Below are positions 4,034 to 22,959 of a DNA stretch of 47,331 bases, piece after piece (the stretch's first letter is position 1; each line of letters starts with the position of its first letter). The stretch comes from Sandaracinaceae bacterium. GTDB taxonomy: Bacteria > Myxococcota_A > Polyangia > Polyangiales > Sandaracinaceae. Under the pieces are notes generated by a model, which was not told where the DNA came from, ran no database searches, and saw only the letters and a program-made list of their open reading frames with translations. The position numbers and the translations under genes were made by a program. The stretch spans positions 1 through 47,331 of the forward strand of contig JAHBWG010000075.1 in NCBI GenBank assembly GCA_019637095.1. The letters run 5' to 3'.

Positions 4034-5128
4034 ATGCGAACCACGACCCAGCTGACCGCGGCCTCGACGCTCTTGATCCTGGCCGGCTGTGCCGCCGACG
4101 TCTCCGAGCGTGGGTCGGGCACTTTGCGCGAGGGCCTCACCATCCTCGGCGCCGCGCCCGGTGCGCTCTCCGCGGCCTATCGGCGCGGGGACGTCGTCAT
4201 CTATCTCGAGGCGCTGCGCGGGCAGGCGACGCCGGAGATCTACCAGAACGATCCCGAGTCGCCGGCGTGGGAGATCGACGCGCGCTTCACCTCGGATCAG
4301 GGCCACGCGTTCTACGTCCGCCGCGGCGGCGACGCGTTCGTGGAGCCGCGCTGGGCGACGGAGCTCGAGCAGCAGGACGCGGACGCGCCGGCGGGGTCGA
4401 ACGCGCACCTGTTCGAGCTCGCGCTCGAGGCGGTGCGCGCGCTGCCGGGCGAGGTGGCCGCGCAGCTCGAGCCGGCGCTCGCCGCCGAGCTCGCCCCCGA
4501 GCTCGACGCGCTCACCGACTTCGGGCGGCAGGCGCCCGACCTCTACGCCGCGCAGGACGAGCGCGCGCGCGACGCGCTCCGCCGCGAGGGGCTGCTCGTC
4601 GAGCAGCCCGGCGGTGACGTGGCCTACGGGAGCCCGAGCGGCGCCGAGGGCAGCAACGTCTCGCAGAGCGGCGGCTACTACTACTACATCGAGCTGCGCG
4701 ACAAGCACATCTCCTACTCGCTCTTCCTCAACGGCCGTCACAGCGCGACGCGCGCGTTCCAGTGGCAGAACTCGTGGGTGCGGGTAGTCGACGCGTGCAA
4801 CCACGGGTCGTGCGCGAGCAACAGCAACATGGGGCAAGTCTGCTTGCTCCAGTACTACGACCGCGTCGTCGCGCTGACGCAGGCATGGACGCATCAGGCC
4901 TGTCGCACCGGCTACGATACGTGGTCGAACGGATCGGGCCACAACTGTCACGACGACAGCCGCGTGCAGCTCCGCAACTTCGTGTACGCCGATTGGAACA
5001 ACGGCTACCAGTACTGGTGCAACGACGGTGACAGCAGCGCGGACATCAGCGTCGGTCCTGGCGACCAGGGCGGCGCCCCGCGCTGCGACGCTGGCCGCAG
5101 CCGCGGCTACGTGCACCCCTGGCACTGA
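4034..5128 (+). CDS. Cys-rich lipoprotein of unknown function
   Basis: 364 aa from the ATG at 4034; a longer frame opens at 3992, but this start gives a clean lipoprotein signal (MRTTTQLTAASTLLILAGC, lipobox LAGC, Cys19) with GGGAGA upstream. Residues about 25-200 are charged and Ala/Glu-rich. The last ~150 residues are different: Tyr/Trp/Asn-rich, starting SQSGGYYYYIEL, with seven Cys and motifs such as WQNSWVRVVDAC and DWNNGYQYWC, suggesting a disulfide-stabilised exported domain. No family is recognised. It stands alone on the plus strand, preceded by the TGTCTC array and followed by the stem-loop cluster. It is probably anchored in the outer membrane or periplasm. Confidence 0.8.
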   Translation: MRTTTQLTAASTLLILAGCAADVSERGSGTLREGLTILGAAPGALSAAYRRGDVVIYLEALRGQATPEIYQNDPESPAWEIDARFTSDQGHAFYVRRGGDAFVEPRWATELEQQDADAPAGSNAHLFELALEAVRALPGEVAAQLEPALAAELAPELDALTDFGRQAPDLYAAQDERARDALRREGLLVEQPGGDVAYGSPSGAEGSNVSQSGGYYYYIELRDKHISYSLFLNGRHSATRAFQWQNSWVRVVDACNHGSCASNSNMGQVCLLQYYDRVVALTQAWTHQACRTGYDTWSNGSGHNCHDDSRVQLRNFVYADWNNGYQYWCNDGDSSADISVGPGDQGGAPRCDAGRSRGYVHPWH

Positions 5129-5135
5129 CTTGGCT

Positions 5136-5277
5136 GAGGGGTGCTTCGCACCTCTCCCCCGCTGCGGCAAAGCCGCAGCGGGGCCCCCTCCCCAGTGCGA
5201 ACGCGGCGGAGCCGCGTTCGACCCCATCGCGGGGCGACGGGGCCCCCTCGACCTACGCCCGTCGCTGCGCGACGGGC
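5136..5277. repeat. Cluster of four short stem-loops with shared architecture
   Basis: Four hairpins lie in 142 bases, each with a stem of 9 bp or more, a 3-base loop and GC/GC closing the stem: 5136-5156 (loop TTC, one G-T pair), 5157-5183 (12-bp perfect stem, loop AAA), 5198-5220 (10-bp stem, loop GGA) and 5257-5277 (9-bp stem, loop TGC). The stem sequences differ from one another, but the architecture is constant. An 11-base direct repeat, GGGGCCCCCTC, occurs at 5180-5190 and 5239-5249. The cluster lies in the 353-base gap (5129-5481) between convergent genes. No T-tracts follow the stems, so they are not classical intrinsic terminators. The rest of the gap to 5481 shows no gene. Confidence 0.6.
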
Positions 5278-5481
5278 TGGTCTCGATCGTGCCGTCGGCC
5301 GCGTCGTTCCAACGTTCCAACCTTCCTCGTCTCCTCCACTCTCTTCGTCTCCCGTGAGAAGCGGGAGGCGCGAGGAGCAGGTCTCGAGGGGCGCTCGACC
5401 GCGGGGGCGCTCGATGCTCGACTGCGGCTCGCCGTGCGAACGGACTCTCGAGCCCCGCGCGCGAGCCGAACGATGTCGTGC

Positions 5482-5724
5482 TCAGGGGTCGCGCTCGAGC
5501 CCGAGCGGGCCGGCGAGCTCGTCGAGCCAGGCGTCGAGCTCGGCGGCGCGGGCGCTCGCGGTGACGATCGCGACGACGACGCGGCCGTCCGCGCACGCGC
5601 CCTCGCCGTGGATGGAGGCGAGGTGGTCCTCGCCGGCGAGGATGCCGCCGAGCACGTAGACGTCCTCGCGCGCGAGCCGCACGCGGCGCAGGGCGAGCCC
5701 CTCGCCGATGGGGGCCGGCTTCAC
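5482..5724 (-). CDS. Small protein, DUF4911-like
   Basis: 80 aa. The GTG start at 5724 overlaps the trmO stop as GTGA, so it is the third gene of a coupled tetR-trmO operon. The sequence (ALRRVRLAREDVYVLGGILA then GEDHLASIHGEG, and a C-terminal helix with LDAWLDELAGPL) resembles the ~70-residue DUF4911 proteins of delta-proteobacterial lineages, which have no known function. This resemblance is from memory and only moderate. There is no signal peptide or membrane segment, so it is probably cytoplasmic. Codon use matches the neighbours. The link to tRNA modification rests only on the overlap with trmO. Confidence 0.7.
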   Translation of the reverse strand: MKPAPIGEGLALRRVRLAREDVYVLGGILAGEDHLASIHGEGACADGRVVVAIVTASARAAELDAWLDELAGPLGLERDP

Positions 5725-16382: not shown

Positions 16383-16476
16383 GGAGGCGCTCGACAGGCT
16401 GGTGCCGTCCCCGGTCTTCAAAACCGGTGTGGGGCAGGATGCTGTCCCGTGCGGGTTCGATTCCCGTGCGCCTCCG
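16383..16476 (+). tRNA. selC: tRNA-Sec (anticodon TCA)
   Basis: 94 bases, longer than ordinary tRNAs as expected for selenocysteine. The acceptor stem is 8 bp: GGAGGCGC (16383-16390) with GCGCCTCC (16468-16475), followed by discriminator G16476. The anticodon arm is CCGGT (16411-16415), loop CTTCAAA, ACCGG (16423-16427), with anticodon TCA at 16418-16420 reading UGA. A long variable arm covers about 16428-16450. The T arm is GCGGG-TTCGATT-CCCGT (16451-16467). The 3' CCA is not encoded. It sits between selB (divergent) and asnS (same strand, 41 bases downstream). Confidence 0.96.
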
Positions 16477-21774: not shown

Positions 21775-22959
21775 TCAGAACTCTGCGACGAAGCGGACCC
21801 GATCACAGGCGCCGCACACGAAGACGTGCAGCGCGCCGTCGAGGAACTGCCCGCCTTCGTAGTCGAGGAGCGCGCGCATCTCGCCGTGGTGCGCGCACGA
21901 CGGCGTCTCGTCGGCCTGGTCCCAGGACGGAACGCCGCCGAGCACCGCGCTGTGTTGGCCCGGCGGCACGGGGCCGGGGAGCTCGCTCGTCCACTCCTCG
22001 AAGAGCGCCTCGACGTCCTCGGAGAGCAGCTGCGGTGGAGACCCGGCGAGCGCGCGCTCCAGCTCGGGCGGGAAGGGACCGTCGAGCGCGAGCTCGTCCC
22101 CGCCGAAGAGCGCGCTCGACGCGAGCTCGGGGCGGCGCTCGGCGCGGCACCGGTGCCAGTACACCGACGGGAGCTCGCGAAGAGGGGCGTACGCGCTCAC
22201 CGCTTGGGTGCCGCAGGCGGGGCGGGAGGAGCGCGTCGGTGCGCCGGCCGGGCGGACGACCCGGTGCTCCCCGCGGACCCAGCCGACGTGCCCCACCTGC
22301 GGGTCGTCGCGATGCTGCGTCCCGCACCCGAAGCAGAAGAGCGCGGCGAAGCCGCGGCCGCCGCCGAAGAACGGCGCGACGAGCGCGGGCGCGAGCTGGA
22401 CGCAGAGCTCGAGGGGCGCCGCGCACCGCCCGCACCGCGGCCACTCGGCGACGTCCAGGAAGGCGACGTCGCCGAGCGCGAAGCTCTGATCGCGCGCCGC
22501 CTCGACCGGGCGCGGGTCGTCGTGGCGCGGGATCCCGAGCGGCCGGACGATCGGCGCCGTCTCCCTGATCTCGTGGAACCAAGGGGCGAACAGCGCGTGC
22601 GGCGCGAGCGCGAGCGGGGGCGCCTCGAGCGCGGGCGTGAGGCAGAGATCGGCGACGTCGCTCCAGCGCGGGTGCGCGCTCACGAACGCGCCCCAGGAGG
22701 TCCGCGCGCGCGTGGCCGGCTGCGGCGCGGGCGTCGCCGGTGGCGGCGCGAGCGACTCCACGCGCACCGCCTTGATCACCCCGCCGAGCCCGAGGGTCGT
22801 CTCGAGGACGCGCAGGCGCGCGCCGACGTCGGGGAGGGGACGCACGCGCGAGAGCGCGGTGCCGCCGACCCGTACGCGCGTTCCGTCGTCCATCTCGATC
22901 CAACCGAGCGCGTCGATCGGATCGAGCTCGACCAAGGTCCCTTCACCGATCCCGTCCAT
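21775..22959 (-). CDS. Cold-shock-like domain fused to DUF1963/PDCD2-like zinc-ribbon protein
   Basis: 394 aa from the ATG at 22959 (GTG at 22965 possible; neither has a Shine-Dalgarno). Residues 1-70 look like a small beta-barrel: GEGTLVELDPIDALGWIEMD, DGTRVRVGGTAL, DVGARLRVLE, close to the cold-shock fold pattern. The rest has pairs of Cys suited to zinc: WPRCGRCAAPLELCVQL, FCFGCGTQH, SCAHHGEM and VCGACDRVRF. The phrases CGRC...PL.L..QL and GGVPSWDQ recall the DUF1963 (YwqG) or PDCD2 C-terminal type. The function is unknown; probably cytoplasmic. It follows the amidase gene after 58 bases on the same strand. Confidence 0.75.
   Translation of the reverse strand: MDGIGEGTLVELDPIDALGWIEMDDGTRVRVGGTALSRVRPLPDVGARLRVLETTLGLGGVIKAVRVESLAPPPATPAPQPATRARTSWGAFVSAHPRWSDVADLCLTPALEAPPLALAPHALFAPWFHEIRETAPIVRPLGIPRHDDPRPVEAARDQSFALGDVAFLDVAEWPRCGRCAAPLELCVQLAPALVAPFFGGGRGFAALFCFGCGTQHRDDPQVGHVGWVRGEHRVVRPAGAPTRSSRPACGTQAVSAYAPLRELPSVYWHRCRAERRPELASSALFGGDELALDGPFPPELERALAGSPPQLLSEDVEALFEEWTSELPGPVPPGQHSAVLGGVPSWDQADETPSCAHHGEMRALLDYEGGQFLDGALHVFVCGACDRVRFVAEF

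Follow-up and report, generated by a model that had tools for sequence, protein, structure and literature searches.

Transposition of the IS200/IS605 type proceeds through single-stranded DNA, with a short target, insertion 3' of that target, and structured ends. REPs are sequences of 20-40 nt that carry a GTAG/CGTC tag, and two of them in inverted arrangement form a REPIN. The REPs of S. maltophilia have 8-bp stems and 3-nt loops, and TnpA-REP cuts at CT beside the REP (PMC8266576). GTAG REPs often give their flanking ORFs a TAG stop (PMC3733652) and, according to PMC12306157, REPs lying no more than 15 nt from a stop codon regulate translation and, in E. coli, stall ribosomes (Liang 2015, cited there). 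Bacterial MITEs and other small mobile repeats (RUP, Correia/NEMIS, YPAL/RU-2, CIR) are shorter than 200 bp, non-autonomous, scattered and polymorphic in their presence (PMC2229807).

Here we describe a repeat found in a window of 47,331 nucleotides (the whole stretch of DNA that was analysed) from a Sandaracinaceae bacterium whose 9.25-Mb genome is referred to as G000. It belongs to a dispersed family with compensatory preservation of its stems, docking about 8 nt behind stop codons with a preference for CTGA, and presence/absence polymorphism between genomes. Like REPs and REPINs it is palindromic, non-coding, dispersed, of high copy and mostly extragenic, often near gene 3' ends. The first-pass annotation of this locus, made from the sequence alone, had called it REP-like, which is fair as far as these properties go and does not extend to the tag, the REPIN arrangement or a RAYT. 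The element differs from REPs in its size (about 160 nt and five hairpins), in its spacers (GTTTGC, GTCTTC, GCTTGC, GTTGGC and others, with no conserved GTAG or CGTC tag) and in its nearly invariant distance from the stop, and from REPINs in that its copies stand head-to-tail. It resembles MITEs in being shorter than 200 bp, non-autonomous, scattered and polymorphic between close genomes, and YPAL/RU-2 in lacking TA termini and having internal inverted repeats. Unlike MITEs, it is built of several hairpins, docks at stop codons and lacks terminal inverted repeats, the ends of the aligned copies not being complementary and the AGGGG/CCCCT pairing being internal. The element thus behaves as a REP-like or small mobile repeat while lacking the REP tag, the REPIN arrangement, a RAYT and the inverted repeats of MITEs. 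Our literature searches, mostly outside subscription papers, returned no description of such repeats in myxobacteria, which is weak evidence of novelty.

One copy, consisting of five hairpins (H1 to H5), occupies positions 5129-5286 of the window. Gene boundaries here and below come from a coding-score gene model, and are predictions rather than curated annotation. The parts are as follows.

4034..5128, + strand: host gene, about 364 aa, N-terminus lipoprotein-like, no Pfam match (ORF list and coding model); its CTGA stop abuts the element
5125..5128, + strand: CTGA docking site (C and stop codon TGA); CTGA is enriched at element-bearing stops
5129..5136, + strand: 8-nt spacer from the stop codon to AGGGG of the first stem, 8 nt long in 28 of 34 stop-linked copies; 5136 is also paired in the fold
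5136..5156, + strand: hairpin H1, 9 pairs including one G-T, loop TTC (sequence and fold)
5157..5183, + strand: hairpin H2, 12 bp, perfect, loop AAA (hairpin scan)
5179..5190, + strand: direct repeat CGGGGCCCCCTC, copy 1, 12 nt; conserved linker GGGGCCCCCyCCC across the order
5198..5220, + strand: hairpin H3, 10 bp, perfect, loop GGA, the loop being variable between copies
5222..5242, + strand: hairpin H4, loop GGG, 9 pairs, of which one is an A-C mismatch in the window copy (sequence and consensus fold)
5238..5249, + strand: direct repeat CGGGGCCCCCTC, copy 2, 12 nt
5250..5282, + strand: hairpin H5 (5257-5277, 9 bp, perfect, loop TGC) and, around it, an outer helix formed by 5250-5253 and 5279-5282, GACC/GGTC here and, by covariation, GGCC/GGCC in other copies
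5283..5302, + strand: last bases of the core (TCGA, up to 5286), then the first part of a tail with weak conservation (alignment and coverage)

The cluster reported by the first-pass annotation is therefore real, with perfect 3-nt-loop stems at 5157-5183, 5198-5220 and 5257-5277. Of its four hairpins with stems of at least 9 bp these three are perfect, the fourth (5136-5156) reaches 9 pairs by counting a G-T, and a fifth, at 5222-5242, had been missed. The GC-NNN-GC pattern at the loop end, also noted then, is found in all five hairpins, and the direct repeat begins at 5179 and 5238 as described, being 12 nt and not 11 nt long. Four perfect hairpins of at least 9 bp with 3-nt loops occur in the whole 47-kb window, against 1.7 expected under a first-order Markov model of the window, and three of them fall within 121 nt at this cluster. 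Compared with shuffled sequence the hairpin segment folds much better, with z = -6.5 as RNA and -6.6 as DNA, and none of 200 shuffles folded equally well. No intrinsic terminator (GC-rich hairpin and T tract) or promoter was found in 4900-5600. An Rfam search over the window returned only a tRNA-Sec elsewhere in it, the best local match being Acido-Lenti-1 at 18.6 of 37 bits, below the gathering threshold. A second, weak match to the covariance model described below (22805-22903, E 0.006) was dropped as a further copy, as it lies in ordinary-looking GC-rich sequence.

The 181-base stretch 5120-5300 gave 53 BLAST matches in its own genome, about 40 of them near full length and 80-91% identical, and a 34-nt core pattern was found at 63 places, compared with none for the reversed control. 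The family consequently has at least 63 dispersed copies in the 9.25-Mb genome. Since the whole block recurs across the genome, the hairpins are parts of one element and not separate features, and the view that they had arisen otherwise than by simple duplication has to be given up, the block being a copied repeat with about 80-91% identity between copies. We cut out 41 copies with their flanks and aligned them (alignment A1). The core extends from just behind the stop codon to ...CTGGYCTCGA, comprising about 160 bp and H1-H5, with a weaker tail beyond. H2 is missing from some copies, 8-nt stem pieces are duplicated in some, and others are tandem, head-to-tail, with a fixed junction CTCGATGTCTTCGGAGGGG in four loci. 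At one locus (L030, G000:C165:43981-44273) a single element copy is followed by several tandem repeats of the 3' module (H5 and its flanking sequence), and similar partial repeats are present on contigs C1, C110, C115 and C126. Scanning named genome contigs for the exact pattern yielded nothing; either this version of the sequence is lineage-restricted or records of the genome itself were excluded from the scan. Identity with integron attC sites is unlikely, because the element occurs as dispersed single copies on many contigs.

Within G000, two or three sequence versions occur of hairpins H1, H2 and H5, and in every version the arms match. The A1 fold contains eight predicted pairs with two-sided changes (counted over related copies, not as independent events), and in H3 the minor-letter frequency is 0.161 in the loop and 0.010 in the stem. 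The earlier proposal of a conserved shape with changing sequence is borne out by these figures. An RNA-level constraint in particular is not: there are 9 G-U pairs against 18 A-C mismatches, so the transcribed strand as RNA is not singled out by a wobble signature, and DNA hairpins, or repair acting on palindromes, account for the stem conservation equally well.

Between genera, too, the shape is kept while the sequence changes. Pieces of the element match genomes of the same family and more distant ones, with the same order of parts and other stems. When 24 H1-H2 segments from five genera were aligned, 9 of 15 pairs showed two-sided changes (again related copies, not independent events), while AGGG, CCCT-CCCC and GGGGCCCCC-type linkers were invariant across the five genera. 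Eight common H1 inner stems were found across genomes, every one of them fully paired. With a covariance model built from this alignment, matches were obtained in 22 of the 115 genomes from the order, including 8 of the 10 that belong to the window's family, and in a single genome from a different order of that class, the genomes that contributed to the alignment matching by construction. In other genera (L071 and L072 in G035, L067 in G005) we also observed long tandem arrays with different 3' ends, mostly off stop codons; an example of such a 3' end, from G035, is AACCAGGTCACGTG...CCTGGCGGGGGAGCT.

The AGGGG of H1 lies 7-14 nt behind a same-strand stop in 34 of the 41 G000 copies, exactly 8 nt in 28 of them, and none was scored inside a gene. 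The remaining copies are tandem second copies, lie farther downstream, or follow a gene missed by the model, as at L021, where an open frame of 338 codons has its TGA at the position expected. In G001 and G006, 16 of 20 and 28 of 40 copies, respectively, lie within 15 nt of a same-strand stop, compared with about 5-7% of random positions in other loci of the three genomes (ORF criterion). The stop reads CTGA in 31 of 34 element-bearing cases in G000, compared with 83 of the 207 stops that lack the element (p = 1e-8), and the preference is also seen in G001 (p = 0.003) and G006 (p = 0.04). Host genes, judged by sequence, are core genes of unrelated function, and no gene family recurs beside the element. 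Enrichment at convergent gene ends, for which the first-pass annotation had suggested a test, is not observed (16 of 33 copies against 80 of 208 other stops, p = 0.34); the association is with stop codons. CTGA sites in sampled intergenic DNA alone would place about 39% of copies elsewhere, so that the excess at stops calls for selection or for some additional rule of targeting. Docking is strong in G000, G001 and G006, all of the window's family, partial in G005 and G008, and weak or absent in distant carriers (4 of 12 copies in G185 and none of 14 in G035, a genome dominated by tandem arrays), and it is thus a feature of some lineages and not a property of the whole class. The broader idea that a previously undescribed element class spread through Polyangiales-type bacteria is aimed at stop codons as such, as a portable module that sets termination or mRNA decay of its host genes while stems are replaced by lineage and the fold is kept, seems unlikely to us.

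Comparison of G001 (10,327,335 bp in one contig) with G006, a genome of the same genus, showed copies present at the stop of one species and absent from the orthologous stop of its congener. For only 4 of 18 loci in G001 does the orthologous site in G006 also carry the element. At nine other G001 stops the G006 orthologue was found, with 91-99% gene identity; eight lack the element and one, pstB, keeps a deletion remnant of it. At ribB, atpD, atpC, a SulP-like gene and serA (names read from the protein sequences) the two genomes can be aligned on either side of the gap, and the aligned empty sites show no consistent target duplication, possibly a further difference from MITEs. We favour gain over loss as the polarity of these empty sites, though this is unproven, since none of these G001 host genes is among the examined G000 hosts.

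Together, this evidence suggests that the repeat is probably a non-autonomous, REP/MITE-like mobile element of five hairpins, arranged head-to-tail, that enters at CTGA, is mobilised in trans and may affect termination or the mRNA end. By analogy with TnpA-REP and IS200-type enzymes, a trans-acting endonuclease would recognise the hairpins as single-stranded DNA and join the element to the 3' side of a CT/CTGA target. Where genes are dense and the DNA is GC-rich, surviving insertions would be those at a CTGA stop, because these leave the protein intact. While a ribosome terminates there, H1 would stand at its mRNA entry, a position likely to slow termination and cause a modest down-regulation, and the element may also, or instead, protect the mRNA 3' end, in analogy with the E. 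coli REPs that lie close to stops. Strong transcription termination is disfavoured by the copy that lies between atpD and atpC, within one operon, and by hairpins without a T-tract.

The CT/CTGA preference is compatible with single-strand transposition of the IS200/IS605 type, but no such enzyme is common to the carriers. None of the candidates sought (Y1, Y2, RVT_1) is shared by the carrier genomes examined: Y1 transposases are present in G000 and missing from G001 and G006, which also sets the element apart from the REP/RAYT system; reverse transcriptase (RVT_1) was not found in G000 or G035; and Y2 transposase was not found in G001, G005, G035 or G185. G001 has fourteen reverse-transcriptase matches, compared with none in G000. 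The Y1 loci of G000 and G005 are not flanked by the element, with the exception of an IS200-like Y1 transposase gene (L042 1960-2400, G000:C132) situated some 0.7 kb upstream of an element copy, which has its own end hairpin GCCTTCGCCTAAAGGCGAGGGC; this gene was ruled out as the element's partner, its end hairpins being separate and different.

The same observations could be read as a vertically inherited 3'-UTR module (a transcription terminator, or an array that stabilises RNA) which selection has retained behind stop codons and recombination has homogenised, with the differences between species representing losses. The fixed place behind core-gene stops, the strong structure, the greater conservation of stems than loops and the pstB remnant in G006 would all suit such a module. 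We nevertheless hold it to be rather doubtful, given how few loci are common to the two genomes of one genus, the copy inside the atp operon, awkward for a strong terminator, and the lack of T-tract terminators, convergent-end bias and G-U preference. Recognition of the insertion site through translation termination or mRNA, in an RNA-templated or ribosome-coupled manner that targets stop codons as such and not CTGA, would account for the G006 copies that abut TAG, TAA and TTGA stops, and for stop occupancy above that predicted from CTGA alone. However, the strong preference of G000 and G001 for C before TGA is a DNA-sequence signal, G000 has no reverse transcriptase, and purifying selection against insertions within genes or promoters can account for a large part of the excess, which makes this route distinctly improbable. 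A stop codon, an 8-nt spacer and a strong stem also recall the geometry of a programmed readthrough or selenocysteine-type signal, and a tRNA-Sec gene does lie in the window (16383-16475, + strand, 75.5 bits); such a signal is very improbable for an element placed behind dozens of unrelated genes, with lengths that differ by non-multiples of three and, in window-type copies, another in-frame TGA two codons farther on (TGA CTT GGC TGA), and no conserved in-frame extension after UGA, as expected of a bacterial SECIS or readthrough signal, was found. Chance GC-rich hairpins or local duplication, conceivable in 74% G+C sequence that yields many short stems, are refuted by the 63 dispersed places in a fixed context, the absence of control matches and z below -6.

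As a mobile element the repeat would add a large family, present in 22 of the 115 genomes sampled from the order, to bacteria without reported repeats of this kind in the literature searched. The sister genomes furthermore offer natural pairs, in which a core gene has a structured element 8 nt behind its stop in one genome and none in the other, and with which REP-like effects on termination and mRNA decay are directly testable. The first-pass interpretation is, overall, partly supported. We also observed that homologous small proteins from two genera, 50% identical (L029 in G000 and L118 in G006), both have the element directly behind their stops, a shared location due either to common ancestry or to repeated insertion.
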